From assembly GCA_029532415.1 (NCBI GenBank), contig JAQOTA010000050.1, positions 5,518,001 to 5,582,000 on the forward strand: 64,000 nt of DNA, given 5' to 3'. Source of the stretch: Marasmius tenuissimus (taxonomy: Eukaryota > Basidiomycota > Agaricomycetes > Agaricales > Marasmiaceae). Numbering within the stretch: the stretch's first letter is position 1; every line of letters starts with the position of its first letter. Position numbers and translations under genes: made by a program. The notes under the pieces were generated by a model. The model was given only the letters and a program-made list of their open reading frames with translations. It had not been told where the DNA came from and did not search any database. Below are positions 4,579 through 43,778 of this stretch, one piece after another.

Positions 4579-4850
4579 ATGGCCCAAAGAAGTATGTCCC
4601 AGTGCGTTATTATCTGCGATTCTGCTGACTCGTTTCCAGTCTCAAAATAGTTGTTTCATTCGAAAGCCACCCAAATAAGTGTTCGTCTCATCCGTTTCTT
4701 TATCTGACTCTACTGACGTGGATCCAGTCTGAATAGATTTCTTTCATTCAAAAATCAACGTATATCAATTAAAATAGTTTCCGTGCCCAATCGAACATCT
4801 TTCTTCTTTCGAAAACAATGCGTGAATGTGTGAGGAATGCGAAAGCATAG
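4579..4850. other. 3' flank of the DUF6532-like gene
   Basis: AT-richer sequence, presumably 3' UTR and terminator. No reading frame is worth calling. Confidence 0.4.
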
Positions 4851-5232: not shown

Positions 5233-5416
5233 TTTCCTGATGTAAAGGCGTAAAAGACATTAGTACTGTGTAAGTACTTCTACCATGAATGGTAGTATGC
5301 TTGGTGAGCATAGTCGTGTTTGCCTCATGTATTGGAGGCTCTACTTATGCTATTGGATAGCGACTGTCTATAGTGTCATTTATGATGAAACTATTAGGTA
5401 CGTAGTGAAATACGTA

Positions 5417-5423
5417 GACAGAG
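5417..5423 (+). repeat. Left target-site duplication of the KDZ element (GACAGAG)
   Basis: The seven bases immediately outside the left terminal inverted repeat are identical, in the same orientation, to 23844-23850 outside the right one. This is the mark of transposon insertion. Confidence 0.85.
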
Positions 5424-5678
5424 CACCTAACCGTCCCACCCCTGTACTACAAACCAGTGGGCAGAACCGGGCCGCCGGAACCATTTGGTTTGTGGTGGAC
5501 TGATGTGGTCTGCCGCATCTCTCAATAACTTCCTTAGATACCCTCGTTATCCTCAAGATCTTTCCCTCATATCCTCTCAAGTCCTCTCAGTCATGCAAGC
5601 TCCCGCCCCCGCGCCCTCCCTCCCGACGCTCCCTTCCTTTTTTGACCAACGCTTACTCATCACCTCACACCTTCACCC
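5424..5678 (+). repeat. Left terminal inverted repeat of the KDZ element
   Basis: It starts CACCTAACCGTC and matches the reverse complement of 23589-23843 base for base except at 5437 (C here, T in the other arm). The similarity stops sharply after CTTCACCC at 5678. It contains GC-rich and pyrimidine-rich tracts. Confidence 0.93.
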
Positions 5679-6252
5679 ACGACAGCTCCCTTCTCCCGTG
5701 CCTACTCTGGCCTATCCGACACTTTTTTCCCTATCCGCCCACTACATGATACTCAACATTCTGGTTTTTCTCTCGTCACTCATCCACCTGCAACTACCTC
5801 TTCTTGTTCACCTAGTCATCCTTTTCAAGACTGTTCATAAATTTTTCCCTGTCTAACACGCACTCTTCCAAGCTCTCCCCTCATAAACGAGCCAGTCAAG
5901 TTGCAGGCGTGATGAGAGAGTTGAGGTTGAAAGCTCGGACAACTATGGCCTGGCTGTAACAGAACGTAAGGGGGGGAAGGGGTCTTCTCCTCTCGATATT
6001 CATTAATGATGTCCATGTTTCTCCCCGTCTCTCTCTCCACGAACGCGACTACCTATCTCTACCTACTGCTGTTTTTGACCTGACCTCAAGTCTTATCTTG
6101 GCACCCGCCGGAATCCTACGTCGACGGTTTCCTTTCCAATAACATACAAGTGTCGATTACGGGCAACAAGGTAGTACAATTATACACGATGATACACAAT
6201 GATACACGATTTATCTGAAGATTAACGCAAATAACAAAATGGTTGGAAGGTC
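5679..6252. other. Left subterminal non-coding region of the KDZ element
   Basis: No supported gene lies between the left repeat and the end of the minus-strand HMG-like gene. The sequence is pyrimidine-rich and ends with a short tandem array (6181-6210). Confidence 0.5.
6181..6210 (+). repeat. 10-bp tandem repeat, three copies
   Basis: Three consecutive 10-mers of the form (G/T)ATACAC(G/A)AT lie just downstream of the HMG-like gene. This is a small minisatellite with no evident role. Confidence 0.8.
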
Positions 6253-8483
6253 TTACTCGTCGTTATCAGATCCCTCCCCTCGCGTACGCGTGGCAGGATG
6301 AGTGCTCGCACCCAAGTGTTTTTTCTTGGGTGCTACCCGGGCCCGCTTGGGCCGAGAGTGTGTGTTCTCTCCACCATTCTGAGGCTCCTCCGTCGGCTCC
6401 TCCATTGTCTTCCGCTTCTGTCCTGCTTTGCGTGTCGTGCTATCAGGTGCGGTCATTGGAGGGAGTGGGTCTCCACTCTCACTGGACGCACCAGTGGTTG
6501 TTTGGCCGATACCGGTCATCGGGCCGGCCGTGAGTTGGATCGCAGGAGGGTTGTGGACATCGTGGAGTAAGAGAGGGTCGATGGCTGCGTCATCCAGTGG
6601 CATGGCCGAATCTGTGTTGCCAAGGTCTGTCTTCGGGTTCGTTATTACGACAACAGGGGAGGGTGGTGGATCGTTGGAAACTGGAGTCTGACTATTGTTC
6701 TGCTGTTCTCTCTCGATTGCAGAAGGCAAGCGCTTTGGTAATGGACGGGGAGGAAGAGGAGTTGGATCAGGGATGGAAGGGGAGGGTGGAGCGGGAGCGG
6801 GAGCGGGAGCGGGAACGGGAGCGATGGCAGGACTGGCTTCAGAGCCGCTTGATTTGGACTTGGTGGGTTTCGGGCCGCCCTTCGGTTTCGTGGGTTTCTG
6901 TTGCCTGGGTTTTTTTGCTGGCGGCACCTTTGAAGCGAGGGTTAACTACCGTTGCGAAAGAAGAAAAAGTTCTCTCACCTCTGTAGACAGAGTGTTGTCT
7001 TCAACAGACCCTTCGTCAGACTCTTCATCGGACGATTCTGAATCCCCTTCATCAGAATCATCCCTTGCCTTAGTGGTTTTTGGTTTTCCCTGCGGGCCTC
7101 TCTTCACTCCGGCATCACGGCGCTTCTTTCTCGGCTTCAGCTTGACGGTCCCGTTCTGTATACCCTGTGCACGTGCCGCCTTCCAAGCCTCAAACTCGTC
7201 AGCATCCAGCTTCCGGAACTTGGCAACACCATCACGCCAGGCATCGCGCACGAGGAACAGTGTATCGTTGGACCCCCCTAAACTGCTTGTCTTCACAAAC
7301 GGCACTCCCTTTGGCCATCCCTCGCAAACCACGCCATAGCGAAGGGTGATGCGCGCCTCGAATTGCTCGTACTGCATGGTGACATTTGTCGTAGAGCACA
7401 CCTCATCTGTAGCGTAGTTCAGTCAGAGTTTGAATGTGATATGAAGCTGCTGAATACGTACCAAGTGTGTTTTGGATAAGAGAGGTGATTTCCCGCTTCA
7501 GGGCCGAAGCTTGGTCCTTTAGACTTTGAATGAGTTCTAAAAACACAGATGTTAACTTTCACGTAATGTCCAGGATCATAAACTTACTTGTGGGATCGCA
7601 GCCACAGACTGCAAGAGCCTCAATCTTTTTGCCAACGGTCGAGGTATTCCAGCCGCGTAGGAGAGTCGAGAGATACTGTTCAATGCGGTTGTCTGTGAAT
7701 ATCCATTGTGGTTTCATGATCTTCTCCAGCCTGTTCTTCACAAGAAGAACCATGGCCTCGATCCCGACACGATGTTTGAGACCGGTCAACTGAGAAGGAG
7801 TGAGAACCAGAAAGTGAAGGTAGATAAGGAAGGTCACAACTTACAATCGCAATGATCTGTGCGAGGCAAGACGACGTGTCAGCGACTTTCTCTGCAATGC
7901 TGGGTCTCTTCAGCCGCTCCCTCTTCTCCTCGTCCCGATTGTTCTTGAAGTCGTCCATCATCTTCTGTCGTTCCTGGGGCGTCTGCTTGTGATACTCGGC
8001 CTTGAACTCGGTCTGGATCTCCTGTATTGTCATAGGTGGGCGGCCAGCTGTGGTTGAGGGTAGTCAGTGATAAAAAAAATAGATAAACGAGAGCTATAGA
8101 AGCTGACCCTCGCGATTCTGACGTGCCTTCATCCACTTGAAGGCATTGAATTCGTTGGGGAGTTTTGCAGGCTTCCTAATGCGGAGTCCACCTTGATAAA
8201 ACATGTCCAGAAAGTACCGGTCCTTCATCTTGTACTCCGTCGCCAGCTTATGGCATTCCTGGAGAATATACTTTCGAAGCTGCGCAATCTTCTTCTTGAT
8301 AGCAATGTCTCGTGTCTTGTGTTGAAGTCGGCGTCGCTCGCGTTCTGCTCGAGGCATGGGTGCACGTTTTGTCGTGGCGTGATGTGTCCGTTTCTCCATC
8401 AGAGCACCAGGGGGAACAGCGTGATACCTAGCCGCGAGCATATCTGCACGCGACTGAGTGCGAACGCCAACCCTTTTAGGCAT
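6253..8483 (-). CDS. HMG-box-like DNA-binding protein (transposon cargo)
   Basis: A minus-strand multi-exon gene starting MPKRVGVRTQSRADM at 8483. The order of parts is: a basic N-terminus with an Arg/Lys-rich helix (about residues 40-70), an HMG-box-like segment (PNEFNAFKWMKARQ, then an exon with TEFKAEYHKQTPQERQKMMD), a conserved middle around CGCDPT, and a globular block with ITLRYGVVCEGWPKGVPF and FEAWKAAR. Basic and acidic low-complexity regions follow, and then a Pro/Ala/Lys-rich tail with AT-hook-like PKGGPKP motifs. Introns are short. I recognise the arrangement as an Agaricomycete family often seen beside transposons; that association is from memory. It probably binds DNA in the nucleus and could help transposition or shape chromatin, which is inference. 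It converges on the left end of the element. The Pro/Ala tail is encoded by a GAGCGG repeat near 6790-6825. No stop or frameshift is seen. Confidence 0.6.
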
Positions 8484-9108
8484 AAATAGTAGTGAGAGGA
8501 TGTGAAGAGAGAGGAAGAGAGCAGGTATATCGACGGAGAATTTGTGGCAAATGAACCTAGATTCAAAAAAAACACTCGGACGGGCTGCTAGCACCCTAAA
8601 AAGTTTTACCGCACTCACAGAAGTCACAATCGCGATCCCCATGAGCTTTTTCAGCATCCGTACATCTTGTACCATTTGCAATTTGCTTGAAGGTGGGCCA
8701 GATAGTCGCACATGGGTGACTCTGCTTCAGGTTTTGCCTAGTTGGTTGACCAATTGACATGGTTTCGGTAACAGAAGATGTAATCTCGAAGGGTTTGGGT
8801 TTGATTGCGAGTAATTGTTATCTTTGGGGTGCCAGCCATTCTTCAGGTTGTAGCTACTTGTTGATCCACAGTGCGTCTGAAGTCGAGGTTCAGTGGAGAT
8901 CAGGGCCATGACGTACACATTTCTTGCACAGCACGTTCGGCAAGTTCCGTCTGCAAGTCCGGCTGTTTGAACCGGTCCGTGTGAATCCGCGTTCGTGTCT
9001 CTATCTGGCAAGTGGCGAATTCCATTCTTCCCTCCCCCCTTCACTTCACCTGCACACATACAAAATTTTTCCACCGTCCGATATCACCCACAGTCGCAGC
9101 AAAGCCTT
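8484..9108. promoter_or_regulatory. Divergent intergenic region (HMG-like / RNase H1-N-like genes)
   Basis: About 0.6 kb separates the start of the minus-strand HMG-like gene from the start of the plus-strand RNase H1-N-like gene, so both promoters must lie here. No convincing TATA box was identified. Confidence 0.4.
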
Positions 9109-10038
9109 ATGTCGACAGGTAAGCCTCATATCAGAACTCTCACCTGCTTTTTACATACTCAAATCATTGTAGCCACACCGTCAAAAGCTCGAAGTCGTAC
9201 TCGGACTCGCACAGAGACGTCCACTGAGCTGGGCTCTGATAAAGGTGAGGTGATTTTGTCACAAAGCTTTGTTTCCATACTCATTTATCTTCTTCAAAAT
9301 TCAGTTTTAGCACGTACAACTACCAGGACGACCACGGTCACAGTCATCGAGAGTCCCTCTTGTCCAAGTCGCCTCTCCTCACAAACTCAATCAGCCCCAT
9401 CTCTCGGTGAGTTTGTTGAATTGAACGATAATGCCACCATCTTACTCGCAAACAGACAGCGAGTCGGAGGCACCGCCGGCATCCCCACCCACCACCGGGC
9501 CAACACCTTCTGGACCGTTACCTTCAAGTGAACCATCCCCATACTCCCCTTCCGTTCCAACGACATCCCCGACATCATCATTTAGCTCAAGCTCACGTTC
9601 TCGACCATCAGGATCAAGAGACATAAGTCAAGATGAAGCTCTCATCGCACATTACGAAGATCGATACCCTGGAAAGGTTCCGCATCCCCGTAATTTCATT
9701 GTTCCTCAACTGGCTAGTGTCTACTATGTAGTCACAGCAGGGATCGAGGTCGGTATCTTCACAGATTGGTGAGTCCAAAGTCAGGTTATCTTTTTCATTT
9801 CATTGATGAATCTGACAGAGATCCGACACACAGGAACCACGTTGCTCGTCTTGTACTTGGAGTCAGTAGGGCCCGCCACAGGAGTTATCCACGACACCAT
9901 CAAGCGTGGACAGTCTACTTTGAGCAGTACTTCGACGGAAGTATTGAGGTTCTCAATGTTTACCAGAATACCGCACCTCTAGCTACACAGCTCGCGGACA
10001 ATGGTCTTGAGGATGTCGTTGCTAGAATGTCTCTCTAG
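9109..10038 (+). CDS. RNase H1 N-terminal (viroplasmin)-like domain protein
   Basis: ATG at 9109 is followed almost at once by an intron (9118-9173), then short exons separated by GTGAGG...TTCAG and GTGAGT...AACAG introns, and a last exon ending at 10038. The N-terminal half is Ser/Thr/Pro/Arg-rich and disordered. The C-terminal part has YYVVTAGIEVGIFTDW, then an NHVARLVLGVSRARHRSY block, then WTVYFEQYFDGSIEVL. That spacing (YVV..G...GIFT.W....V.GV..A.+.S+...A...Y) is the signature of the RNase H1 N-terminal or caulimovirus viroplasmin fold, which binds RNA:DNA hybrids. There is no catalytic RNase H domain. A role in binding hybrid or structured nucleic acid during transposition is inference. 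Inside the KDZ element it heads three co-oriented plus-strand genes. Confidence 0.65.
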
Positions 10039-10277
10039 ATTATTCACCACCTCGTATCGTCTTTTATCACAATCAATCTGATAAGTATTTGTATTGCACG
10101 TTCTTCTTGGAAAACAAGCGCGTGTGAGTGGTGATTGGGGTCCGTTGCGTGTCCCAAATTGGCAGGAGGTGTTTGGTATTTAACCTGAGTCCCAAAGGAA
10201 GGCGCGAAAAATTATCCTTCACGCTTCCACCACCGTCTGTGTTCCTCTAGTTCTTTTCACCCCACTTTCTCGCTGCC

Positions 10278-11267
10278 ATGAACACTCCATCTTCTCCTTC
10301 CACCAATGCTCATTTTTCATCCCAGTCTTCCGACACCGATGTTGTTGTTGTCTCCTCCAACACTACCACACAACCTGATGCCGATGTCACCAACGTCCTC
10401 GATCCCATTGCTGTTGACGAAACCTCCAGTGCCGGCGAGGTCTCAGAAGATGACCAGCTTCCACCACTCATGCCATCGGACGCCCCTCTTACCTCGGTTC
10501 TCAACGGAAATCCTGGCAATTCGGACAACCCCCCGCATGCTCAACACTCGGTTGCGCAGCACACGGTGACGAACAATACCTGGGGGAACGGAAACAACGG
10601 TTGGGCAAGCGAGGACTTTGAAGTCACCGAGAACAGCTGGCGCAATGCGGGTCCACAAAGCCCCAGGATAGTGTCACTCACGCCGGGGCGTCCAAGCTGG
10701 ACTGAGCCAGCTGACTCCGCTGTCTTCCGTTGGCGTCCTCAAGCCTCCATGTCCGGAAAACCCTCCCACAGGCACATTGCCCTATACGTGCGGAAGGATC
10801 TCCACTCTGCTTTCCAGCCCCTGGGACAGCGAAAAATTTCGGCATTGACTCTGACTGCGACAGATAAGTGGGCTCGGACCCTCAGTGAGTACTGCATACT
10901 TTTTCACAGCTCTTTTTTTGTCAATGACTTTTTGCTAACACTATCTATACTAGTCATCCGAGCGCTTCCAGAAGCTCAGCATGCTCATATACCACCACCT
11001 CAGTTCACGCTCACAGAGGTTTGTCAACGCTTAGCTCAGGTTGATAATGAGCTAGCGGCTGCACGCACCTCGATCGACAATAATTCCGCTCGCCTCGAGG
11101 CCATCAAAGAGGAACAGGAACCCCTTCGTGCCCGTCTTCGCCGTCTCGACAACGAGAGAACAGCTCTCTTGCAGGCCAACGAAAACGTGGAGCAGAAGAT
11201 GAAGGAGCTGTCAGAGGTTCAGGACGACTTGCAGGATCTCGAGTCGCTGGCAATGGCGTTTTCGTAG
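10278..11267 (+). CDS. Ser/Thr-rich protein with C-terminal coiled coil
   Basis: The open frame starts MNTPSSPSTNAHF. The first 150 residues are Ser/Thr/Asp/Asn-rich and probably disordered. A middle block (AVFRWRPQASM... KISALTLTATDKWARTL) may be a small fold. The C-terminus (from about residue 245) is a long heptad-like helix rich in Leu, Glu, Arg and Gln (EVCQRLAQVDNELAAARTS... ALLQANENVEQKMKELSEV), predicted to be a coiled coil. An intron of about 69 nt with GTGAGT at about 10885 and CTATACTAG at about 10953 keeps the frame, so the unspliced ORF also reads through. I do not recognise the family. A TATTTAA element lies about 100 bp upstream, near 10177. It is cargo of the KDZ element, and an oligomerising partner of the other cargo proteins is only a guess. 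Confidence 0.6.
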   Translation: MNTPSSPSTNAHFSSQSSDTDVVVVSSNTTTQPDADVTNVLDPIAVDETSSAGEVSEDDQLPPLMPSDAPLTSVLNGNPGNSDNPPHAQHSVAQHTVTNNTWGNGNNGWASEDFEVTENSWRNAGPQSPRIVSLTPGRPSWTEPADSAVFRWRPQASMSGKPSHRHIALYVRKDLHSAFQPLGQRKISALTLTATDKWARTLSEYCILFHSSFFVNDFLLTLSILVIRALPEAQHAHIPPPQFTLTEVCQRLAQVDNELAAARTSIDNNSARLEAIKEEQEPLRARLRRLDNERTALLQANENVEQKMKELSEVQDDLQDLESLAMAFS

Positions 11268-11745
11268 GTATATAACTTCTTGTCATGTTGTCTAGTACTT
11301 CGCGCTCGGCTGTTATGTAGTCCAAGTCTTGACCCAATAATTGTATTCTCGTCTTCGTCTTCCTTGATTTTGTATGAGTAAGAGCCGAGTTCAATGGCAG
11401 AGTCCAATGTAGAAGTACAATTGAGTAAAGCAGATCAGGTACATTGAGAATATGAGCGAGAAAACGATTGCCGACTTGACAGCTTCTGTCAAGTCGCCGG
11501 AACTCTGCTGACGTGACTGACATTACTGTACAAAACAAGGGCTCGAGCCAGCAAAGAATCACTTGTCTATCCTTGTGAGGTTGACTTACACCTTAGATAA
11601 ATTGGATTCAAAGTCCAAAGGCATATAAATTTCATTTTACAAAGGGTTTGAAGTGATTGGTAGGGTGACGAAAAAGTCAGGAAATAGGAAAGCGATCTGT
11701 ATGCGCGAGCGAGATTGCTCTGGTTCCCTGGCTACTCCCATACTC
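11268..11745. other. Intergenic region between two cargo genes
   Basis: No supported gene. It should contain the terminator of the coiled-coil gene and the promoter of the next one. Confidence 0.4.
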
Positions 11746-12679
11746 ATGCCTCGACCCAAGTTGTATCACACCAAGGCCGAACGCAAGGAAGCAAATCGGG
11801 TCAAAAACAAGAGGTTCTACAACAAGTAAATGTCACAACTACCCCGAAGATCGCTATTTAATGTCGCCTCTTAGGCATCGTTCAGATATTCTCAGTAACA
11901 AGTTGCTCAAGCGCGAGGAACAAAACAAGGCCATTGAGAAGGAGGGGTGGGTCTCAATCTTTATTCTAAAGCTACAATATAACCAGTTCTACAGGATTCG
12001 ACTTCGCAAGAAAAGGCGGGAAGTGAGAGAGAAAGAGAAACAGAGGGAGCTTCTACAGCGGAGAGAGTCTACCGAGGTGAACGAAGAAGTATCGACGAAA
12101 ACTGAGAGACTCAGCGGATGTATCAAGTATGTCATTGTATCTCTCTACTGCTTTGGGTGGTACTTACTTGACTACAGGACGTTGGAGGGCCAACTGGTAC
12201 AAATGAAGAAGGACTACCGAGTTGTTGCAGGGCCAGATGACAAAAAGTGCCTGGAAGCAGCCTGCAAAACAACCATTCGCTGGAAGCAATGGGCTCGACG
12301 GTGCTCAACGAAACAAGCCACAGGCCAAAGTCCTCTACTCGACTGGAGGAAATACTTGGAGCGAAAGCTCATGGACTATCAGGCTGTTGAGGACGAATAT
12401 TTCTATGCAATCAGAGAACAAGTGGGACAAAGTTGGGACGAGAAGCGAGGAGATTTCACTGCTTACCGAGATCTCTTGGTCCAGATGATTGCATTGACCG
12501 GAGAGCTCAAGAGGTGTCGCCGATTGGAATCGCGTACATGGGTCCAGTCGCGTGGGCGGCGTGAGAATTTGATATCCGGGGCTTCTGTTGGCAGCGGCGC
12601 ACACGCCACGTCACTATCTACAGCTCTCTCTCTGTCCCCTCCTCATGTCGTCGCAATGTCCTTGTATGTTGCAGAATAA
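11746..12679 (+). CDS. Small basic, helical protein (MPRPK-type)
   Basis: It starts MPRPKLYHTKAERKEANRVK at 11746. Exons are split by short introns, at 11827-11874, about 11949-11994 and about 12127-12178. The N-terminus has the Asn/Arg/Lys-rich pattern of a family I know from Agaricomycetes (MPR.+LYHT..E+..AN+.K.KR.Y+K), which looks like the basic region of a bZIP-like DNA-binding protein. It is followed by a highly charged coiled coil (RLRKKRREVREKEKQRELL) and a C-terminal helical part. Nuclear DNA binding is inference. A gene of the same build lies on the other side of the large P-element-like gene, at 18297. No stops are seen. Confidence 0.55.
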
Positions 12680-12696
12680 ACATATATATATATATT
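12680..12696 (+). repeat. AT dinucleotide microsatellite
   Basis: A short run of (AT)n lies in the gap between the convergent 3' ends of the MPRPK-type gene and the P-element-like gene. It probably belongs to their 3' flanks. Confidence 0.8.
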
Positions 12697-12709
12697 GACC
12701 TACAGACCT

Positions 12710-15700
12710 CTACGAGTGAAGCCGATTCGTTAACATCAAACCATCATTGATACCCCCTTGGTCACTGCTTTCCTCCAATGAATCTGGACACTGTTTCTTC
12801 CCCCTTTTCCGAGTTCTGACTGTTGTCGGGGATCCAGGAAGAGACGTTGGGGGCCTTTTTAGGGCGGGCTGTTGGATGACAGAGGTGGCCGAAACGCAGA
12901 CTGAAGGCGCGAGATAGTCTTCGGGGATGAGGTCTGCAGGTATGTTCATCGCTAATTCTTCTTCCCTCGTGATTCTGATTCCTTCTCTGAATTCGTCAGT
13001 GGTCTGAACTCGCCAAGAAGGATGGCATTGCTCCAGATGGTCCAATATATTGTATTTCCAATGATTCTGGGCTGAGCTCTTGCACAGTGGGCATGCAATA
13101 GGGACGTTCGTGCAAGGTGAGCTCGGCTTGAATGTTGATGCTGCATGGTATTGAAAATTATAGGCTTGCGGGCACGATGACACTGTTTTCTTCTTCCGAA
13201 GCTCAACACGACACTTCTCAGTTGAGCTGGGACCGGCACAGAATCCGCAGGGATTGACTGAAACCTACACATTTTGCCATTAACCATTATGAAGCTCGAA
13301 CAACAGTGTATTCATACCTTGTGCTTAGCCGTCGGGTCTTCAACACCCCGTTTGGAGAAAAGTACGTGTTTCGCTGCATGTTTCTGTCTGTTCTTGGGCT
13401 CAATGAATGTCTCGCAGATGCTACACCGGGTACCGTCGTCTTTCATGTTGATATCTTTTGTAGATTGAAAGAAGTGTAGCTGGTCTGTGAGTAACTCGTA
13501 AGTTGAGTCCGATACCGTACCAAGAAAACCTTACTCACCATCCATCTGGCAGGGAAACAATCCTTTTCTTACGCCGCCAACAGTCGGGATTTTTGACCAG
13601 TGTTTGAGTCGCAGGACGTCACCCCATAGCCGATTCATTGAATCTTCTAAGAATGTATGACCTACTGACCAAGTATCATCAAGGTTCTGCTTTCGTCGAG
13701 TGGATGCTTCAGGCAAGTGGTCGCTTATTGGTTTCCCCGCGTTGCTTCCTACAGGGATGGCGAGGAAGCCCGGAGCTGATACTACGAGTGCTTTCTGGTT
13801 GAGGTTTTGATTTGCAGTGTTTTTCGCTGTGGAGTTGAAGGCGACATACTCTCCATCCCAGAGCCACATTGTTTCTGGCGCCGTATCTCCGCGTAAGTCT
13901 ATCCCTTTGACCGGAATCAAAGACAGAACTTGACCACATAGTGTGCAGTTTGCGTCTGGTAATATGAGCTCTTTCGAGTTCAGACAGGGTACCGACACCT
14001 CGCGATTGCGCATGGAGGTTGACTGCACGACTGCAAGGCAGACACCGACATCGGGGAGATGGAGGAGTGTCACAAAGAGGTCGCCGAGATTGAATCGGTC
14101 CTTTTCTGGTATCGAGGGCTCCTCCATGCTCATCTCCCACTTCTCTCCGCCAATTGAATAGCACCGAACTCGAAGGATTCGATCCTTACTCTTCATCCTG
14201 TCGAAAGCTCCTTTCATAGCGAAAACAATCCTGATGATGGACCATTTATGGCACGGCTTTCCGTCGATCACCATCCACACAGAATAGCCGTCGGTCTCGA
14301 GCTGTGATGCTTCCTCCTCTTCAAGCATATTGTGTACAACTTCAAGACTCGCGAGGTCACAGGCTCTGATCTCGTGGTATATCAGAGGAGGAGTAGATGA
14401 CCGACTAGTTGAGTTCGTGGTGGTGGGTGATTCGATGTTTTCTTTGTCAGCAGGCGACTGATACAGTGGTCCGTCTACAGCACATGTTCCCGTGGCAGAG
14501 GGTGGATTAGGTGCAATGGACTCGGAAGGATTCGGAGGTAACTCCGGTGCAGGAATGGTACTGGCACCCTCTGACTCGAACGGATTCCCGCCAAGGTTGT
14601 TACTGGAGCCCTCAGCTGCCGAGTCGGCAGTGGGTAAATCATCCATAGAGCGGTCGAACTCTTTCGACAGTCCAGGGTATCGTCCTTGAGCTCTTGGTGG
14701 TCTCATCAGGTCCACGTCCTCCCGCTGGAATAGCTCTCCAAACTTCATGGTGATCCCATAGCTCGACAGCATGTTTTCCGCACGCTTCTGAGCTTGACAA
14801 TAGCAGTCCCCGAGGTTGCAGCTTGATGCTTGCACATCGCCCTTCCAGTTTCGAGGTCGCAGATGGTCAGCGTCACGACTCCGGTTCATGGCCAGCCGCT
14901 TTGGTTGTTTCTCCCAGTCTGGATGCCGTTCATATATATTCTTGATATTCATGGCCCGGCTCATGCGGTTGGCCAGTTCTTTTCCATCGCAATTGGGGCT
15001 GTGGCCACCTAGCATCTGTACAAGTCCGAAAAGGGTTTCCAGTACGTCGTCCCCAAGTAATGTGAAAAACACCTCCTGACTTGGGTCTAGGTCTTGTTGT
15101 CGAGCGACCATGAAGACCGCCGCTTTAACCATGGCCTGGATATCACCATAGAGCTGATTGGGCATGAATGCAGTGCCGTGCTCTTCGAAAACCGCAAAGA
15201 GAATATGGGCCGAGGTCAAGAGATGTTGTACCTGTTCGGTGAGTGACAGCGCGGGGTCGATGAAAGATTGGATGAGTTCGTGAATAATATCGCCAAGCAG
15301 GGAAATGGCAATCCCAGTCGCATCCTCTGACGGGTTGTAACGGCTGACGTTGCGTAGCTCATCAACCAGTTTCATAAGATCAATAGCACGAGGGACATCC
15401 TGTGAATCTGAAGGATTCAGAAGTGCTTGGATAGTGGATCTGGCGAGGTCTGGTAGACGAGAGAGCCAAGACGATATCAACATCTTGTTGACTACAGTAG
15501 AATTGATCAACATGCCCTCCTTCGAGCACAGGAGTCTACAAATCCCTTTGGTAACCGTCAGCTGATGTCTATGTTCACGCCACTTGAGTCTCGACTCACG
15601 TTTGAACAGGTGTTTAAAATCAAAGTCCATAACTATACCGTCTTGGCTGGTGAACTTGTTCAGCCCAGTAAGTGGTCGCAGGATCTTGTGAAGGGGATCG

Positions 15701-17714
15701 CCATCGCTCAATCGGTGAGTCATGCAAATGTTGTACAATGCGCCGCGACGTTTACTGTCCCCGTCGACAGCAATGATCCAGATGGGCCCGTGTATGACTT
15801 CTCCGTGGGGCGAGTCCTTCCACGCCTGGAGAGTAACCTTGATCATGTGTACAGAATCCTCCACTCGGACAACCTTGCAAGTCGGGGAAATGAGGATTGG
15901 CTTTGCGTAGTACCTCGTACGGGATAAGGCAGAAATCGCAGCTACGGTTGCCTCTTTTGCTAGGTGTGCGGTTGGAGTCTCGCAAAATACAGCCTCTGCC
16001 GCTGCGAAAACATTGTCGAGAGTGAATCCGATGGTGAGGTTGAGGTGGTCTGTATGTTCTCGACATAGACCCCCAATTTTATCGTGTTGTTTTTGATAGA
16101 ACGGGTGTTCATCAATGGCAATCTCGTCTAAAGAGAGTGTATGGCCGCTTTGGGAGGCTTTCAGTGCGTTATTCATGCTGTCTGGGTCAAAAAGCTTTGC
16201 TATGTTGTGAAGGATGTCGTCGGCCAAGTCTTCTAGACCAACGGAGGTGATGAGGTCAAAGTCAATTCGATGCGCATTGACAGTGGTGAGGGATGGTAGG
16301 GAGCTATTGGAATGGTGAAGTGCATAGAGGAGAGAGCCACCACCTGTTAGGTATCCAAGCGTGGCAAGGTCAATCTCATCCTCAGTGTATTTGTGCGAAT
16401 GATATTCGCCACGTGTCGCCATTGACATCCTCTCGATGGCGGCCCGAACACCGACCCCCTCAGACGCACACTGAGCAAGTAGGCGCGTTACACCAGGTAC
16501 ACTATTGTTGGCAATAAACGACTTTAGGTCTTCCAAATCATTGACTCTCGCCCGTGCACGCTTTAGTGTCCGTTTAACGTTCAGGATCTAGCAACCAGTA
16601 AGTCAGGCTGAAGATTCGAGTCTACACAGAGCTCCTCACTCACCGACGTTGTTTGCTTGGTGATTTTATCGTTGCGGGTCTCGATACGGGAGACAAGCTG
16701 TGCATGACTGCATTCTGGGTTCTTGAGATTGCCGCCAGACATGTATCCTGCGCGTTCCTTGACTTTTTCGACTTTGCGGTCCAGATGGCTACATGGTGGG
16801 CACATATAACGAGTATCGAGAGCAAGCTTGGTACACTGGTCTGAGAGCACCTGGACTTCTGCTATCTCGGGCAGATAACTGACAACAGTACCCAGGCTGT
16901 ATCCCGGTTGGAACGGCGATGCTGCACTGTGGATAGAAAACGGATAGGTGGTGTAATAATCTCCAATGTCCCAAATCATGATAAACCCGGGACATAGGGT
17001 AGGTTCTGCTGTCGGAAGGGGATCAAAGGCTGGTATGTCATTCTCCAAAGGCTCTACAAGATTGTTCCGACATTTCTTATTTTGCTGGTGTACCCCCAAT
17101 GGATAGAGCCCCGGATGAGCGCCCATGCCAACCCAATTGCGACATAGAGGACAAAGGACTTCTCGAGAACTTCCTTGTCCCCGTTGCTGTTTGGGAGGAA
17201 CAATCTCGAATGGGGGTTTTTGCAGTGAACCTGAGGGGATACGCGACAAATGTGACGGCGGAACAACGTGAGTGTATGACCCATAGATCTGATCATGGTT
17301 TCGGGGGGGCTGCGGGTGAATTGTATGTGAATTAGGGCGAGGGCTGGTATGGCATTGATACTGTGTAGCCTGATGTACTGAGAAAGAGCGGTGGTAGTGA
17401 TTTAGAGTGTGGTGGGGGTAGGAAGAAGGATCTATCAATAGGTTGGAAGGTGGCTGAAAGTCGGCAGGCGGGGTCGACAAGTTCGGATATTGCGGCAATT
17501 CTGAGTAATGGGTGTAGTTTGGCAAGGATGGCGGTTCATTTGGGTAGTACTGAGCTGTACCGAGTTCAAGATATCTCTGCTCCTCAACAGGAGCCTGAAC
17601 AGGGCCTGGGGATTCAAGAAAATGGTCTGCTGCACCTCCGAGTGCTCCAAGAAAATTATTGTCCCATGATGGTTGCAGTGTGATCGAGAGAGAATCAAAG
17701 AATAGAACTGGCAC
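12710..17714 (-). CDS. Large P-element/THAP9-like transposase-related protein
   Basis: A minus-strand multi-exon gene of roughly 1,500 residues. Exon 1 (17714-16581) is Pro/Tyr-rich and holds a zinc-binding motif (CPLC...H...C) and a conserved GFIMIWDIGDYYTTYPFSIH block. The main exon (16536-13531) has a helical start, then WIIAVDGDSKRR (about residue 257 of the exon), VMDFDFKHLFK (about 304) and, after a long helical insertion, GDDVLETLFGLVQMLGG (around 15,030). This D...D...E spacing, with a helical insert and an LE..FG..+..GG block, resembles P-element and THAP9 transposases; this is my inference. A 54-nt intron at about 15552-15605 lies in frame. The 3' exons add a CxxC-x12-HxxxH finger (13355-13440), a CGFC motif and a CPLC...H...H finger (about 13020-13090). 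The overall architecture matches a widespread Agaricomycete family without a formal name known to me. No stop interrupts it. Confidence 0.6.
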
Positions 17715-18296
17715 TGTTCAAGAGTGTATGTATCGGGAAGGCTGAATCAGAGTAATTCATCCATTCTAAGGGCAAAAAACGCGTCGCAGGCGCGGTTATG
17801 GTTGTACCGAAACCTCGAGAAGGTAAAAAAAAATCACTCTGGCTCTGGGAACGCGGATGTGGCGGAAAATTCTATTGAGCCCAGCCTATACGTCATGGTG
17901 CTGCCTTTTGGTTGTTTCCCCCGTAGTACTGTAAAATACAGGACGATTTTGGTGTCGTTTTGTAGGTTTTGGAGCACGGGGATTTCACTCAGATGGCTAT
18001 CTCAGCGAAATTTTCAGTGGTTCATCGAGTTCAAGTATTCTATTCAGTCTGTGGCGGACAGCTGTCAGAGGGGACCACCCCATGCCGTACATGTACGCGA
18101 TTCCAATCGCGGACACCTCTTGGGAGAGCTACAGAAAAAGGTTGAAGAGATTGGGAATGGGGTAGAGCTCGTCGATCTGTCTCCAATTTACCGTAGTGTT
18201 TTCTCTGACCGTCCACCAGCGCCTATACTTCAATGATCAATCAATTTCTTGACCTCGTTGACTTTGAACCATCACTACCACCTCTCACTGAAAACA
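17715..18296. promoter_or_regulatory. Divergent promoter region between two cargo genes
   Basis: About 0.58 kb between the start of the minus-strand P-element-like gene and the start of the small plus-strand gene at 18297. Open frames here have no convincing coding character. Both promoters are expected in this gap. Confidence 0.4.
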
Positions 18297-19098
18297 ATGC
18301 CCGACACGGCCAGAAGCAAAAAAGTATATCGGTAATACTTTCCATTACATCCTCACCTCTGCAACTGATCGAAAAATCAGGCACTTGTCATGGGGCAAAC
18401 AGTTGATTCGACAGGCCAAAAATCGCAAGTGCGACCTTGTTCGAGCACAGTAAGTCAAGATTTCATTGCATTGTGGCCGAGATTGACTTGGTTCTTTCTT
18501 TCAGGCAAGGAAGAATTAAGCGGCGACGAGAGATCTCCACCCGCCGGGCTGAGGAGGATGATCGTGACAGGCAAGATAATGAGCGGTTCAAACTGGATTC
18601 AGAGTGCGTCGACGGGCTATCCTATAGAATGCATCAAGAGACTGACCTTCATTCAGATACTATCAACAGCATTTGCGGACCATGAAGATGACGTTGCAGA
18701 GGGAGGTCAACAATGACCCTTCCCAATACCTTGAGCACCTCTACCAAGAACTTATGCTCTGGAAGAAAGCCAATCGTCCCGCTGGCTCGCCTCTTGATCA
18801 CCCGCTTGCCATTCTTGCCTCACTCGAAATTACATCCGCGAAGATTGCACACGGGATTGAGCTCACCGTCGGGAATGTTCCTCTCGTGGAGAAGTACCGC
18901 GCGTTGAACTCGTTTGTGTTCTCCCTCAGCCTTTGTGTGCAGGAGTTCCACATGGCTATGCTCGAGGAGGACATGATGGGCACGCTGGACGAGGAGACGG
19001 TTACACAATACTCAACCTTGCAGGACCGACACGATGGACGGTTTCTCAAAATGTTTCATCCATCATTGTTGTTAAAGTACAACATTGCTGGGCTGTAA
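18297..19098 (+). CDS. Small basic/helical protein, second cargo copy of the type
   Basis: ATG at 18297 begins MPDTARSKKVYR, then an intron (GTAATA...AATCAG), an exon HLSWGKQLIRQAKNRKCDLV, an intron ending TTTCTTTCAG, a strongly charged exon (GRIKRRREISTRRAEEDDRD), an intron ending CATTCAG, and a long last exon with YLEHLYQELMLWKKANR to the stop at 19098. Overall layout (short basic start, Arg/Lys/Glu coiled coil, helical C-terminal domain) parallels the gene at 11746, and the two flank the P-element-like gene. I see no catalytic motif. A DNA-binding accessory role is only a guess. The choice of frame rests on splice phases: the other frame gives a less natural protein. Confidence 0.5.
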
Positions 19099-19142
19099 CA
19101 ATGCATCTTCTTACTTCAATATCAACAATTCCATTGACTACT

Positions 19143-19481
19143 CTAACTCTGAGGTGTGATTCCGCTGTCAGCTACAACAGTGAGCATTTGCGAGACGACA
19201 ACTTCGACTTCAGGTGAAGCATGAACCTTTCTCCGACGCCTGAGAATAATCCTCGGAGGTGCGAGCCGGCGTATCATGTTGTCCAGCTGTAAAATCTCTG
19301 CCTCCCGATTATCGAACCGACCTTTGCAAGTAGCTTTCATCTGAGCCCACTGCTCAAGATCGTGTGGTTTCACCCCCCGTTGGGGATATGGACGCACCAA
19401 ACGATGAGAATACTTCCGGATACGCCGCCTGGACAGTTCCATATGAAAATCATTAATCGGAAATATTTGTGAGGTGCTCAC
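19143..19481 (-). CDS. Small basic hypothetical protein
   Basis: A single open frame of 112 codons starting MSTSQIFPINDFHMELS, rich in Arg/Lys (RRRIRKYSHRL, ILRRRRKVHAS). It lies just downstream of the KDZ transposase on the same strand and converges with the gene ending at 19098. Composition and position make it plausible, but I recognise no domain and it may extend upstream through an unseen intron. Confidence 0.35.
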   Translation of the reverse strand: MSTSQIFPINDFHMELSRRRIRKYSHRLVRPYPQRGVKPHDLEQWAQMKATCKGRFDNREAEILQLDNMIRRLAPPRIILRRRRKVHASPEVEVVVSQMLTVVADSGITPQS

Positions 19482-19896
19482 TCCATTTCGTTCCGGTCAT
19501 TTATCTTATCTTGCATCCTATCAAGTCAAATATGAACCCTGAATATCGCGATAGAGCCCATGAGATGATACTCACAACGCACGATAGCGGTCCACTGTTT
19601 CTGCCCGAAAATCCGTTCAAGCTTGGACCAATTGAGGGATCTCCTCTTCCGAATACCCTCGGAGGCTGAGCCACTGTTTCTCTGCCTTCCCCTGAAGCCT
19701 CAAACATTCATGCCATGGATTCACTATGTTGATGTTCATGACTGAAAAGAATCAAGATTGAAGTCCACAAGAGAGTCAAAAGTGCGTACCAAGGAGAACC
19801 AAATCAATATCGGGTAATGAATACCGATGATTGAGAGTCCTTCTTATGTTCATGGTTCACGTAGCATGTGGATCCATTGGAAATATCTAAAATATA
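19482..19896. other. 3' flank of the KDZ transposase gene
   Basis: No supported gene; presumably terminator and 3' UTR. Confidence 0.4.
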
Positions 19897-22800
19897 TCAT
19901 ACAAGCAACCCGTCGTTGCCAGGTCTAGATCCCGTCGAAATCCCTTCGAAGTAATCCAATAAACTCTCATTATTGTTGGTTTCGCTGTCGTAGGGAGGAA
20001 GAATATCAGATAGGTTGCGAGTGGGTCGAGCAGATTCGTAGTGTTCATAGGTACGCGTTAGACCAAGAACAATTGGGGCCCAGTCAGGGAGCCTGGCGGA
20101 ATCAGTAATGGCGGGATCCCGATTCAACTTCCGGCCAGGCACCAGAGTTCCTACGTAACAAAACGTTTGTCAGAGCTCTCGGAGTTGTATGACCATTGAA
20201 CATACCTGTAAAGCCTTGTAGCTCGCTTGTTTGGACGAGTCGAATTGCGATGTGGCCGTCTATTTCGACCATAGCCTGCATGCGTTCGCGAACTTCGAAT
20301 GCAAGGTTATCGTTACCCTCCTCAGATAAGCGCTCTGCAGCATGAAAGAGATCAGCATATTCGTCAATCATGTAAGTGATCAAACGGCGGATCTCCACAT
20401 TCAAGCGGACAATCTCTTCACGCGCCCGTTTGAGTCCGAAGTAGAGCCGCATGCATTCACGATGATTAGGCTGGGCCCATGGCACGTTGGTGAGATCAAG
20501 ATGAGTGTCCTTGAGTAAGTCAAAGTCTGCGAGACTGGCCATGTCCAAAATATCTTTCCACTCGAGCTTCGGTCGCGGCGGATCCATAACCAGAGCAGCA
20601 GTATTGTATTCGTCGAGAGCCTTTTGGATGGCTTTGGCCCGGGCTCGCAAGGCTTGAGTTATTTTCTCCCGCTGTTTATACCCTGGAGTTGTAGTTAGCG
20701 ATGAACTAAGAACCATCTGAACAGGCACTCACCAACCCCGCTCATGTTCAGTTTCGTCAGCTCCAATAATCGTTGCACCACCAGACGCTCCAATCTCTCC
20801 AACGCTCGGCGATAGCTCCGAGCCCGCATGGAATCAAGGGTCTCCTGATACTCCTTGTCGGTCGGTTTCCAACGTTTGTAGTAGCTGTGCTCGGTTTCAA
20901 ATACCAGAACCTCTTCAAGGGTAGACTGGTATCGTTCTAGAGCAGTGCGTGAGTGCGTGAGCAAGGATTGCAGTTGCTTCGCGGTAGCCTTCCTGCTCCT
21001 TTGAGCACCCTCGTATTTACCGTGAGCATCATCGGAGGCTATCCTAGGAAACGAATAAATGACACATAGTTCCTAATCATGAGTCGATCAACACTCACTT
21101 TTGCCTAGTCAATTTTTGCAACAACTCGACATAATCCAGCCGGACCGTAACCTCGGGTGATTCTTGGTGTTCCTTGGAAAAGTGGTCGATCTCGTCCTGA
21201 AGGAATCGTTCACAGTCATCCTCCGACACACCCCACTCCTCGCATAGTTCTCGGAACAACGAGCCCTCTGTAGCTATTCTCTGCAGTGCCTGACGATAAT
21301 TCTGGTATATGAAGTTCCCTGAGACCAACCAATAATGAGGATATGTGGAGAACTAAAAACTCATTAACACACCAGACGCCATATGTTTATCCTGATCATG
21401 GAAATTAAAGTGTTCCATCAGGGCTTGATGACGATGAAAGCTGTTGGCAAGGCGAGTCGTCGGGGCGAGGTGATTGGATTCGGAGAACGTCCGTTCACAC
21501 TCCTCAAAATCCTCAAGCCCCACTCCTTCCATATACATTGGGTGCCAACTGACCTGGCACTTCCGATTATGTGCGTGTCCGTGAAGAGCTGGTACTACGC
21601 CCTTGAGGCGAAAGGCTACCACTTGACCTCGCAACTTCTCGCTCCGGAGTAACGTTCTATAGAACGCACACATGATATCATAGCCGAGACCGAGGTCGCG
21701 ACCATACCGGTCCAGAAGGGCCTTCACAACGGCCAGAGGATATTTCATACTGCGTTGGTGTTTAGCTGAGAGTTAAGTTACGAACAGAAATGCTCACAGC
21801 TCGCCACTCCGACGCATGTCACAAACAACGAGGACATGCCCGTGTCGGCAGACAGATAAGAAAATCCCGGACACAGAAAAGAAGGAGAACATCTTCTTAT
21901 GAGCGTCCGGGCCAGCAGCCTTCCATCGCTCTACGCAAGGATTGATGGTGCCAGCCAGGTCATCCAGCTCGTCATCGTTGAGCCAAGTCACTCCCTCGTC
22001 GTCCTCTAACTCTGGTCTATCACATGAGATACTGGGATCCGAAGGCTTTGCAGGACCACGCTATAATCGGTCGTCAGCACAAGGCACGCCATCAGTTGGC
22101 ACACAAGAGACTCATACCTTCGCCTTTCGTTGCGCATTCGCAACTTCATCTTGGTAACGATCAACGAACTCATCCGTGAGCCAACGAGGGTGCTCAATAT
22201 CTCGTGTATCCAGTCTCTGGCGTCCAGACCGTTTGCTCGTGTCGACGAGTTTTAATGAGTTATTACCGTCCATGGCCATCAAAATAGTAGGATTCAAAGG
22301 GATTTCATTTTCCACGTTGTACGTACATGGAGGGCAGACGTGGTGAATAAAGTGTTTCTGAGAATCGCGACCAAGGGTGTGATCAACTCGCTGTTGAACT
22401 TCACACTGAATCACGAGGTATGCATCATAAGCAATGCGAAGTTGTTGTTCAAGATGGGGCATCGGGAATCGCTAGTGAAAAGTGTCAGTATGCTGAAGAA
22501 TGGCGAGAGAAGTGACCTTACGCCGTGAGTGTTGGTGAGTGTCCGGGAAAGACCAGAAATGCTGAACCTTGGACAAACCCGGTGTATCTGCCGAAAAGTC
22601 TCGAGGAATTTGAATGGAAAGGCGATTGTTGGATCATCAGGACTACCACCGATGAGCCCATGATAGGCCAAGGTTTCGTTGGTGGTCAGGGCACCACGAA
22701 CATGCCGCATATCGTCGAGATACCAGTAGTCTAGAATGAACAAGAGTCAGTAACGACGCGAGTTTAACATGAGTTGGTGACGCACCATCAAAATCCATAC

Positions 22801-23447
22801 AGTTGATCCTCCACGTCTCGCCCTCCGACTTTTCATCATCCGCAGGGTCCAAGGCGCCATTAGCCCGGTAGTAAAGATAACCATCCACTAGCTGAGGTAT
22901 CTGTCGCTTCCAACTGTCATTTTGATCCTCCGTTCTGTAGTGTCGGTCCCGCATATCAATACGCCTAAGGCAAGATAATCAGTATCAGTCTCATGATATA
23001 GGAATAGTAGGGACACACCTCGGCGCATCCTCTAGAAACGAGTTGAAAAACGTGTGGAAATCTCCTCCGGCGTTACTGTTCATGTTTCCTTCCTCGCCGA
23101 CAGGTAATTGAAAATCTTCGTCGTTCCAGTCGTCGTCGTCAGGTGCATTTGAGTTGTACATGGGGACATCGGAGAAAGACATTCCATGGCCAGTGGAGTC
23201 AAATAGATCTCTTCGTTGGTAGCTAAGAACTAACACAGAGATGAGATGGATTGAGAGAAGAACAGAAAAAAAGATACATACGTTCCCACATATTGCGGAC
23301 TTGGGCCTTGGCCAGATTCCAGTAATCATGGCCCTCGCCAGAGGACTCCATTTCAACTATCTCATCGTCATCGTCGATAGTTATGATATTTACGGTATCG
23401 GCTAGGGAGTCAGTGAACCCTTTTCGACGGCGTTTTGCGCGATGCAT
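19897..23447 (-). CDS. KDZ transposase (CxC1-type), apparently intact
   Basis: A minus-strand multi-exon gene starting MHRAKRRRKGFTDSL at 23447, with an acidic IDDDDEIVEME segment. Then come the CxC1-associated region (WRINCMDFDDYWYLDD, ANETLAYHG-like TTNETLAYHGLIGGSPDDP, FETFRQIHRVCPRFS-like block) and CPPCTYNVE, followed by the KDZ catalytic core: MAMDGNNSLKLVD (first Asp), CRHGHVLVVCDMRRSGEL, GLGYDIMCAFYRTL, HGHAHNRKCQVSWHP and EGVGLEDFEECERTFSESN (acidic residues). The C-terminus has the long helical region (YKQREKITQALRARAKAI; RAREEIVRLNVEIRRLITYM) usual for these proteins. Introns are short and the frame stays open throughout. The enzyme is expected to cut and join the ends of the 18.4-kb element in the nucleus. 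Its promoter must lie within or next to the right terminal repeat, whose inner edge is about 140 bp upstream of the start. Confidence 0.85.
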
Positions 23448-23588
23448 AGAGGATAACAGTTAGAGCGAATGTTGGTGAAGCAAGGGTATAGGAGCCGTAT
23501 AGGACGGAAAAAAGTCGAATAGTATGTGGTGGGGCGGATAGAAAAAATGAGCGTATTGAATAATGCCGGAGTAGGTGAGAGCTGTTGC

Positions 23589-23843
23589 GGGTGAAGGTGT
23601 GAGGTGATGAGTAAGCGTTGGTCAAAAAAGGAAGGGAGCGTCGGGAGGGAGGGCGCGGGGGCGGGAGCTTGCATGACTGAGAGGACTTGAGAGGATATGA
23701 GGGAAAGATCTTGAGGATAACGAGGGTATCTAAGGAAGTTATTGAGAGATGCGGCAGACCACATCAGTCCACCACAAACCAAATGGTTCCGGCGGCCCGG
23801 TTCTGCCCACTGGTTTGTAGTACAGGGGTAGGACGGTTAGGTG
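23589..23843 (-). repeat. Right terminal inverted repeat of the KDZ element
   Basis: Reverse complement of 5424-5678 with one difference. It ends with GGTTAGGTG at 23843. It lies immediately upstream of the transposase gene and so probably contains its promoter. Confidence 0.93.
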
Positions 23844-23850
23844 GACAGAG
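23844..23850 (+). repeat. Right target-site duplication (GACAGAG)
   Basis: Identical to 5417-5423 in the same orientation. Confidence 0.85.
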
Positions 23851-24578
23851 ACGTAGTGCTTGCATGAGGACGCAAGTGTTCTAGAGGCGTAGCTCTATAA
23901 ATAGTGTGACGCGTAAACAACACGTCAACAATGTATCACATGATATTCATCATGTTCAACAGGGTATACCCGGTCGGGTTGGCGATTCGGGAAATACCCG
24001 GTGTGGTTTCATAGTTGGGGTATACCCGCGAAGACGGGACGCTTCTCCGTGGCTTCTCATTTTCTTGATTCGGTGCCACTCACGTCCGGTATCCGTCCAC
24101 AGCTCTCGTACAACTTCATCAATTTCAAACCTACGTACAGGTAAGACTATATACAGAAACCACGACCCACGCGAACCGTGAGGATCCAAGGAGCAGCCCC
24201 GGATCCGCGACAAGACGCGGGAGAGCGCACAATCACACACCTGTGGTACAGGTGTACGTGTGCTGAAGAGAAGTGAGCCGCGATGAGCCCCACCAGCAGC
24301 AGTGCCCAGCCCCCAACCCGCGAAAAATCGCGAGGGAAGAGACCCCTGCCACCCCGTCACATCACGGAGGACGAGGGAAATACCCGCTGCTGGGGCAGAT
24401 CTGACCTCTGAGCGGGGATACCCATCAGCGAGGTCTGGCAGAGGCGGGGTATACCTGCCCTACACACCACGGGTATCCCCGCCTTGGGGCACAACTGCTA
24501 GAAAAGACCCCTCATAGGCCTAATTATCTCACCGGGGAGATAGGCCTATGAGGGGGGTAAAGGGGTATGCCTGAGGTG
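23851..24578. other. GC-rich spacer with TATACCC/GGGTAT palindromes
   Basis: Repeated GGGTATACCCG-type motifs occur near 23960, 24020, 24385, 24415, 24445 and 24470, together with a strong hairpin at 24508-24555. A minus frame at 24060-24150 has a protein-like run (LWTDTGREWHRIKK), but I cannot place it in a gene. The clustering of motifs at both sides suggests a small non-autonomous element. Confidence 0.4.
24508..24555. repeat. Strong hairpin (CCCCTCATAGGCCTA arms)
   Basis: CCCCTCATAGGCCTA followed by ATTATCTC faces GGAGATAGGCCTATGAGGGG, giving a stem of about 20 pairs with a three-base bulge and a loop of a few bases. Confidence 0.85.
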
Positions 24579-25416
24579 GTACCATAGCACGAGTACCGTA
24601 CCCACATCCGAAGCGTTCCCTACTTACACTTACAACGAGAAAGCTGTCCAATTTTTACTTGGAAATCTGAGTTCAACGCTGCAGGTTTTTACGGGCATCG
24701 GGATTAGAGATGTTTGTAACGGAGATATGCTGCTTTCATCGCCACGTTCTTATCTCTCTACGACTCTGGTATGGCTTTTGCACCCTCTTCGTGCGCCGGT
24801 CGTTCTGATACACGTACTCTATCCAGTAAGTATGGCTAGGCTCGATTTTCAGCTTCGAATCCCGAGCATCCCACGTATCTGTTTCACGTTACGCGTCGCA
24901 CTGAACTCCCTCCTTTTCTTCCTTGGATCAAGGATCTCACTCTTAAGATAGCATTCGTTCTGATCCATATGCGCTTTGCCCGAGGAATCTTGTGCTTCAT
25001 CATGAAGTAGGCACGAGGAGCAAAATATTCTTGATGTTGTTATTAGCAAGCTGTGGATCTCGAGCCCTCAAATCACACTCGACACTTTGTAGGTCACCGA
25101 ATCCGTCTGGTGGGCTATTCTGGGGAGTATAGGCCATAGGGCCATACGAGCCCGGCACCGAGCTTGAGGTGGAAAATGAGCCTGGTATCACGGACGACGA
25201 ACCCATGGAACAAGGGAAAGGTAAGTGTCAAGGTTCATACGGGATGCTCCTTCGTTCGCTAACGACTGTTTGTAATAGTGTCGATGCTCGTATTTGCGAC
25301 GCCACGAAGAGAGACATCCGTGCTGTTAGTCCGAGCAACAGCCGGCTTGGCCGATCCGTCAAGACTGCCTTCTACTGCATTGGCGTACCTCATTCTACAA
25401 CTTCACCGAAGACACG
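24579..25416 (+). repeat. Direct repeat, copy 1 (838 bp)
   Basis: It begins GTACCATAGCACGAG and ends ACTTCACCGAAGACACG. It matches 34213-35108 closely over the whole length, including an intron-like segment (GTAAGTGTC...TGTAATAG). It lacks a 58-bp segment present in copy 2 after GGGATTAGAGATG, probably a deletion between two short ATG repeats. Confidence 0.9.
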
Positions 25417-40974: not shown

Positions 40975-41295
40975 TGATGAGCCAGCATGACGCCTAGCCC
41001 AGAGGACTACAACATGGCTACACTACTACTTACCAGAGAGGAGTTTAGAGAGGTAGAGGCGAGACATAGAAGCTCAAGCACACTGTAGATTCAAGTAGAG
41101 AACTACGAGCTTATATACATGTAAATACAATAGAGTTACCATATAAGGATGACAATAGAAATTGTACATATGAGCATAGTGAACAATGAAGTATAGAACA
41201 ATAGCGAATGCATTGTCCTGCATAATACAATGGCGGGAAGTATGAACCGGGACTTTGGATATACCAGGATCTAATTATAGTCCATGGATTCAACA
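40975..41295 (-). repeat. Copia 3' LTR
   Basis: 321 bp. On the plus strand it runs TGATGAGCC...ATTCAACA. The polypurine tract on its right shows it is the 3' LTR of the minus-strand element. Confidence 0.9.
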
Positions 41296-41337
41296 CACCC
41301 CCTCGCTAAGTGCAGCTGAAGAGCGCATCTGAGCGAA

Positions 41338-43773: not shown

Positions 43774-43778
43774 TGCTT
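43774..43778 (+). repeat. Target-site duplication of solo LTR (TGCTT)
   Basis: TGCTT immediately left of the solo LTR, repeated at 44167-44171. Confidence 0.88.

Follow-up and report, generated by a model that had tools for sequence, protein, structure and literature searches.

KDZ elements are a sizeable group of DNA transposons in mushroom genomes, and the function of their extra genes is unclear. This question is raised by a locus in Marasmius tenuissimus, found in a window of 64,000 nucleotides, i.e., the whole stretch of DNA analyzed here (G000:C7:5518001-5582000 of a 71.06-Mb assembly), where a KDZ transposase gene and several other genes lie within an element whose ends are 18.4 kb apart. 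A first-pass annotation had described a complete, recently moved element of unusual size, carrying far more cargo than transposition needs. What is the unit that moves, and are the additional genes surplus? The element is a complete cut-and-paste transposon of the KDZ superfamily with exact ends. We hold with high confidence that it is a 12.8-kb unit with four genes (the transposase and genes referred to as A, B and C), into gene C of which a 5.6-kb transposon, related in fold to the Drosophila P element and here called P-like, was later inserted.

Ends, copies and age of the KDZ element

The 255-bp arms (5424-5678 and 23589-23843) differ at a single position (position 14, C/T) when compared with each other, and inward of these the match continues to 265 bp with three mismatches. 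A search of the genome with the arm yielded eight terminal inverted repeat (TIR) matches, which pair into four complete copies with lengths of 18,420 bp (window), 12,793 bp (C10b), 12,798 bp (C3) and 22,326 bp (C10a). Perfect 7-bp target-site duplications (TSDs) are found at all four (GACAGAG, the window copy's, GTAAATG, GAGAGGA and ATATTTT). When the flanks of the window copy are joined via one GACAGAG they form a 292-bp long terminal repeat (LTR) without a single difference from C7:5500399-5500690; among the other full-length copies retrieved for this LTR, the match is 96.6-98.3%. This empty site is a paralogous LTR copy on the same contig rather than an allele, and because it offers an uninterrupted version of the target, the ends of the element are fixed. 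Four copies with common ends, four differing perfect duplications and the uninterrupted target together exclude chance, i.e., the arms and flanking repeats of the first-pass annotation are borne out.

Another candidate for an empty-site allele, on C48, was rejected: the match (window 23962-24578 and C48:215528-216144, 99.7% identity) spans only 617 bp, ends exactly at the LTR boundary and lies beside GGGTATACCCG-like repeats on the C48 side. The target LTR itself lacks a matching 5-bp duplication (window 5238-5242 and 23962-23966) and is therefore not a simple solo LTR.

From the copies it becomes clear that 18.4 kb is the distance between the ends in the window copy and not the common length of the family, which has a core of ~12.8 kb. 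In the window copy, 5,615 bp belong to the nested transposon, while the excess length of C10a is explained by two LTR-retrotransposon insertions that interrupt the transposase gene, one (711 bp) within an exon and the other (8,801 bp) within the following intron. The unusual size attributed to the element thus disappears, as the 12.8 kb that remain are within the range reported for KDZ elements.

The transposase was modeled in this analysis as an 11-exon gene encoding 1006 residues that is open with a terminal stop only, in agreement with the earlier description of an open gene, and it shares 73.8% identity with PM082_006941, an annotated protein of M. tenuissimus. An additional intron and a late acceptor proposed by the gene finder were removed from the model, the latter once homologs had been compared. 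One exon frame matches PF18758 (KDZ) at 150.3 bits (cut-off 26.6), which together with the 7-bp duplications and the presence of a discrete element at several sites places the element in the KDZ superfamily. Matches to the CxC cluster are below cut-off (CxC1, E 0.078, in the close homolog P0044; CxC5, E 0.006, in an open reading frame of the window). Two features of Kyakuja elements, the 7-bp duplication and CA..TG ends, are present; Kyakuja-1_LB and Kyakuja-2_LB are described as TIR-less, and because the element has 265-bp TIRs it is not filed as Kyakuja. Judging from its family and the duplications, the transposase would bind and cut the 265-bp repeats and insert the element with a 7-bp stagger.

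The element is also, as had been claimed, recently moved. Near-identical TIRs alone are no clock for a DNA transposon; the basis here is the unchanged target LTR and the divergence of the copies. C10b and C3 differ at eight of 12,793 bases and the window copy differs from C10b at 42 of 12,792, while C10a diverges from the other copies by 0.97-1.24%. Among changes private to one copy, i.e., seen against the other three, C-to-T changes at CpG (both strands counted) account for 30 of 38 in the window copy and 90 of 120 in C10a; private changes are few in C3 (6) and C10b (2). About 23% of the C/G positions of the core are in CpG, and the 30 of 31 C-to-T changes located there are far beyond chance. 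To judge from its sequence, the decay of the window copy looks like deamination of methylated cytosine. After insertion, KDZ copies would then erode through C-to-T change directed at CpG, which is what methylated cytosines would be expected to undergo; such CpG-specific decay in copies that are otherwise near-identical offers a trace of the way in which the host may mark KDZ elements.

Genes A, B and C beside KDZ transposases

In the gene models of C10b, the transposase and gene A share a strand, opposite to that of genes B and C. The window exons of the transposase, A and B align with C10b without gaps and have terminal stops only, while gene C is interrupted. Loci of gene A (23 of 25), gene B (15 of 16) and gene C (22 of 22) lie within 20 kb of a listed KDZ match, against an expectation of ~5.0%, the share of the genome that is this close to one; the true share is somewhat higher, since the matches listed, which merge into at least 93 KDZ loci, are part of a total of 165 KDZ matches. 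Within 10 kb the numbers are 19, 14 and 21 loci for A, B and C, respectively. When the KDZ family of the window is left out, the linkage within 20 kb is 19/21 (A), 11/12 (B) and 18/18 (C). In these counts, exon-level matches were merged by hand to loci (70 to 25 for A, 26 to 16 for B and 65 to 22 for C), and in the protein searches the 8000 best candidates were scored. Linkage is also seen among public proteins: at least five of 11 strong gene A homologs have a KDZ homolog 3-6 locus tags away on a contig of equal length, among the best 120 of 627 KDZ homologs. Of twelve gene A homologs, 11 were aligned and 10 scanned.

All four genes are present together at nine other loci, and their order and orientation are conserved in eight of these (C2, C9, C10:5.87 Mb, C34, C25, C63, C7:4.83 Mb and C23:1.10 Mb); the ninth, C36, is rearranged. 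Near-equal scores indicate that C2, C9 and C10:5.87 Mb are probably one family, and the number of independent cases of collinearity is therefore smaller. The protein identities between the window element and the other four-gene loci range from ~25% to 74% at exon level. In comparison with the C2 element, the plain proportions of nonsynonymous (pN) and synonymous (pS) differences are 0.139 and 0.783 for the transposase (from an interim exon list, with each exon in its best open frame), 0.265 and 0.746 for A, 0.363 and 0.739 for B, and 0.351 and 0.749 for C, where synonymous sites are saturated (pS 0.74-0.78). The C2 element has terminal sequence at its transposase end in common with the window element; its opposite terminus did not turn up within the 17.5 kb retrieved, and its gene A segment contains one stop.

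Genes A-C are found next to KDZ transposases repeatedly throughout the genome and thus appear to be components of the KDZ element, and the description of them as cargo beyond what transposition needs does not survive. The explanation that competes best is that A, B and C are passengers, retained through shared ancestry of the element families without any role in transposition. Linkage alone would look the same under use and under shared descent, and no domain of known transposition function was found in B or C with Pfam. These points are opposed by an order and orientation kept at eight of the nine other four-gene loci over the above range of identities, and by a pN well below pS in all four genes. 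We consider passenger status unlikely, though a real contender.

A role of A-C in transposition or in countering silencing is what we infer instead. The HMG-box-like protein of gene A would bind or bend DNA, and may thereby pair ends that are more than 12 kb apart, or open silenced chromatin and counter silencing; B and C may assist transposition or its control. Some KDZ elements of Agaricomycotina carry TET/JBP genes, proposed in the available part of the source to counter methylation (PMC12730594). A TET/JBP gene within the present element was considered and rejected: a Pfam scan of 17 open frames and four gene models returned no Tet_JBP match at E<=1, although a very divergent type might escape. 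The genome search gave no Tet_JBP match over the Pfam cut-off. Its sole reported match, at C3:4475557-4475760, scores 25.8 bits (cut-off 34.9) and is ~15 kb from a KDZ match (C3:4459519-4460196). Since the genome has no Tet_JBP match over cut-off while the copies show CpG decay, genes A-C become hypothetical candidates for an alternative answer to silencing. The wider proposal is tentative, and we hold it at slightly less than even confidence: Marasmius KDZ elements would be four-protein systems, in which A-C, in fixed order since before the families diverged, are needed either for movement over 12 kb or to evade CpG methylation, replacing the TET/JBP enzyme of other KDZ elements. A fixed four-gene set, several families in one genome and near-identical copies at mapped sites make the question of the extra genes testable.

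A possible fifth gene is located between A and B (C10b 3682-4611, ~window 9109-10038, plus strand, 217 residues), with a match to the RNase H1 N-terminal domain PF01693 at 21.5 bits (cut-off 21).

The P-like transposon nested in gene C

The other three KDZ copies, C10b, C3 and C10a, do not contain the nested element and each retains a single GGAGAGCT, which in the window stands on both sides of the insertion. According to the gene model, a coding exon of gene C is interrupted. Ten shortened relatives of 543-879 bp that share its ends were found by genome search, and the 8-bp duplications of the family are perfect in 10 of 11 copies and match at 7 of 8 positions in one; the nested element is the only full-length, uninterrupted member found. 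With its own ends and its own transposase it was rejected as ordinary cargo. The P-like transposase would have mobilized its own element as well as the deletion derivatives and inserted them with an 8-bp stagger. More distant relatives are found on C41, C23, C17, C37 and C7. The relative at C17:31976-33880 (33% identity, 880-residue open frame) lies ~1.6 kb from a KDZ match (C17:35487-36284), with a relative of gene A at a distance of 10 kb, and may represent a second instance of a P-like element within or next to a KDZ element.

It could be argued that the full 18.4 kb moved together as a composite element, with the nested piece as captured cargo that now travels along: it lies between intact KDZ ends beside an open transposase frame, such that the copy could move whole, the landing of the KDZ element at this site and the nested insertion may have occurred in either order, and nested insertions common to several KDZ copies are described in the available part of a report on Ectocarpus (PMC12477816). 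However, none of the other three copies, not even the most diverged one, contains the piece. It also has inverted repeats and a transposase of its own, and an 8-bp duplication as in its relatives elsewhere; together this makes the composite very improbable.

In structural comparison, the RNase H fold of the nested transposase is nearest to that of the P element transposase, with Transib and RAG1 next, at 14-15% sequence identity to the solved P element chains. The signature D, D, [C/D](2)H, E and the insertion between beta5 and alpha4 are present in the nested-transposase group, and the insertion domain of ~185-190 residues is similar in size to that of the P element. A set of 43 homologs was collected (P0038 was left out of alignments); the conserved residues, counted over non-gap rows of 43, are D154 (41/41), D275 (42/42), D323 (39/41), H326 (37/42) and E517 (38/39), and the consensus has Cys/His clusters towards the C terminus. 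Searches of PDB sequences with the transposase gave chance-level rows only. PF21787 was matched at E<=0.5 in only two of 42 homologs (best 14.7 bits, E 0.039, cut-off 24.6). Because the curated Pfam models of P-element/THAP9 are below cut-off, the element is called P-like and is not filed as a member of the P superfamily. The THAP DNA-binding domain is a feature of animal P elements and THAP9; it is absent among the 22 families matched by the 42 homologs at E<=0.5. Placement in a non-P group of RNase H transposases, e.g., hAT, which usually also makes 8-bp duplications (PMC12730594, part available), or a Transib/RAG-like group, the next structural matches, is very improbable.

As far as the available parts of the sources go (PMC7776569, PMC8230255), the nested element shares with the Drosophila P element and THAP9 the catalytic fold, signature residues and size of the insertion domain, as well as 8-bp duplications, inverted repeats of ~31-33 bp and small internally deleted derivatives. 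It differs in the C-terminal Cys/His clusters, the lack of a detected THAP domain, the low identity to the solved P element chains and its basidiomycete host, and at 5.6 kb it is also longer (2.9 kb in the P element). It suggests that mushroom-forming fungi harbor a group of transposases that are unannotated, have the P fold and signature, and show no THAP domain in these scans. Such a group is relevant to how old the P element, a model transposon, is and to its history.

Known KDZ elements and surroundings in the window

The KDZ1, KDZ2 and KDZ3 elements of Cryptococcus neoformans are ~11, 9.2 and 10 kb in length with TIRs of 241, 139 and 169 bp, respectively; they have 4-8 bp duplications and few full copies, and their mobility has been demonstrated (PMC12810828, as for all statements on these elements, in the part available). 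The Marasmius element is similar in its KDZ transposase, long inverted repeats, large size and few full copies. It is different in having 7-bp duplications at all four copies, the nested P-like element and a CxC1 match below cut-off; that part of the source makes no mention of A, B or C for KDZ1-3. With Kyakuja elements of Laccaria and other Agaricomycotina it has in common the 7-bp duplications, 5'-CA..TG-3' ends, the KDZ transposase and an Agaricomycetes host; in contrast, Kyakuja-1_LB and Kyakuja-2_LB have no TIRs and carry TET/JBP (PMC12730594, accessible part). KDZ elements of up to 30.3 kb are known from Ectocarpus, where nested insertions are common in giant families, and a 31.7-kb element was seen moving in Chlamydomonas (PMC12477816, accessible part). 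These giants are similar in their large size and, for Ectocarpus, in nested insertions and additional genes; they are set apart here by their algal hosts. Large size, long TIRs and nesting are thus already known for KDZ elements. As far as literature searches show, two things appear to be new, namely the group of P-like transposases in fungi and the fixed set of genes that includes an HMG-like one; most subscription journals lie outside the coverage of these searches, and either may be in print.

Table 1. Positions of the KDZ element, its target, its genes and the nested transposon in the window
Feature	Position	Strand	Remarks
Target LTR, left 181 bp of 292	5243..5423	+	joined flanks equal C7:5500399-5500690 exactly
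TSD, left copy, 7 bp	5417..5423		GACAGAG; single copy in uninterrupted LTR
Left TIR, 265 bp	5424..5688	+	one mismatch in first 255 bp; terminus CACCTAACC
Gene A, HMG-box-like protein	6253..8556	-	642 residues from first MPKR; model made in this analysis; weak structural support
Gene A exons	8556-8108 (contains start codon), 8047-7845, 7789-7588, 7536-7462, 7406-6979, 6897-6253	-	
Gene B	10278..11267	+	306 residues; exons 10278-10884, 10954-11267; coiled-coil-like, weak Pfam matches; model made in this analysis
Gene C, first part	11701..12507	+	exons 11701-11825, 11896-12126, 12178-12507 (cut by nested element); model made in this analysis
Nested element TSD, left, 8 bp	12500..12507		GGAGAGCT
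Nested P-like transposon, 5,615 bp	12508..18122		absent from other three KDZ copies
Nested element left inverted repeat, 33 bp	12508..12540	+	
P-like transposase gene	12713..16979	-	annotated PM082_006316, 1368 residues
P-like signature residues	D 16128-16126; D 15765-15763; D 15621-15619 with H 15612-15610; E 15039-15037	-	
Nested element right inverted repeat, 33 bp	18090..18122	-	94% complementary
Nested element TSD, right, 8 bp	18123..18130		GGAGAGCT
Gene C, remainder	18131..19094	+	rest of cut exon ~18131-18206; exons 18314-18449, 18505-18603, 18657-19094
KDZ transposase gene	19897..23447	-	11 exons, 1006 residues; model made in this analysis
KDZ transposase exons 1-6	23447-23282, 23229-23019, 22964-22786, 22730-22522, 22471-22118, 22060-21798	-	
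KDZ transposase exons 7-11	21749-21373, 21318-21099, 21043-20733, 20682-20206, 20150-19897	-	
Right TIR, 265 bp	23579..23843	-	
TSD, right copy, 7 bp	23844..23850		GACAGAG; single copy in uninterrupted LTR
Target LTR, right 111 bp of 292	23851..23961	+	joined flanks equal C7:5500399-5500690

Outside the KDZ element, an LTR retrotransposon is found at window 51643-58058, in which frames for gag (PF03732) and reverse transcriptase (PF00078) lie between 427-bp direct repeats of 97.7% identity, and frames for Copia-type gag, reverse transcriptase and integrase are located on the minus strand at 39394-45732, i.e., the window is rich in transposons. Near the right end of the KDZ element, a stretch at 24579-25416 is duplicated at 34213-35108 with 98-99% identity.

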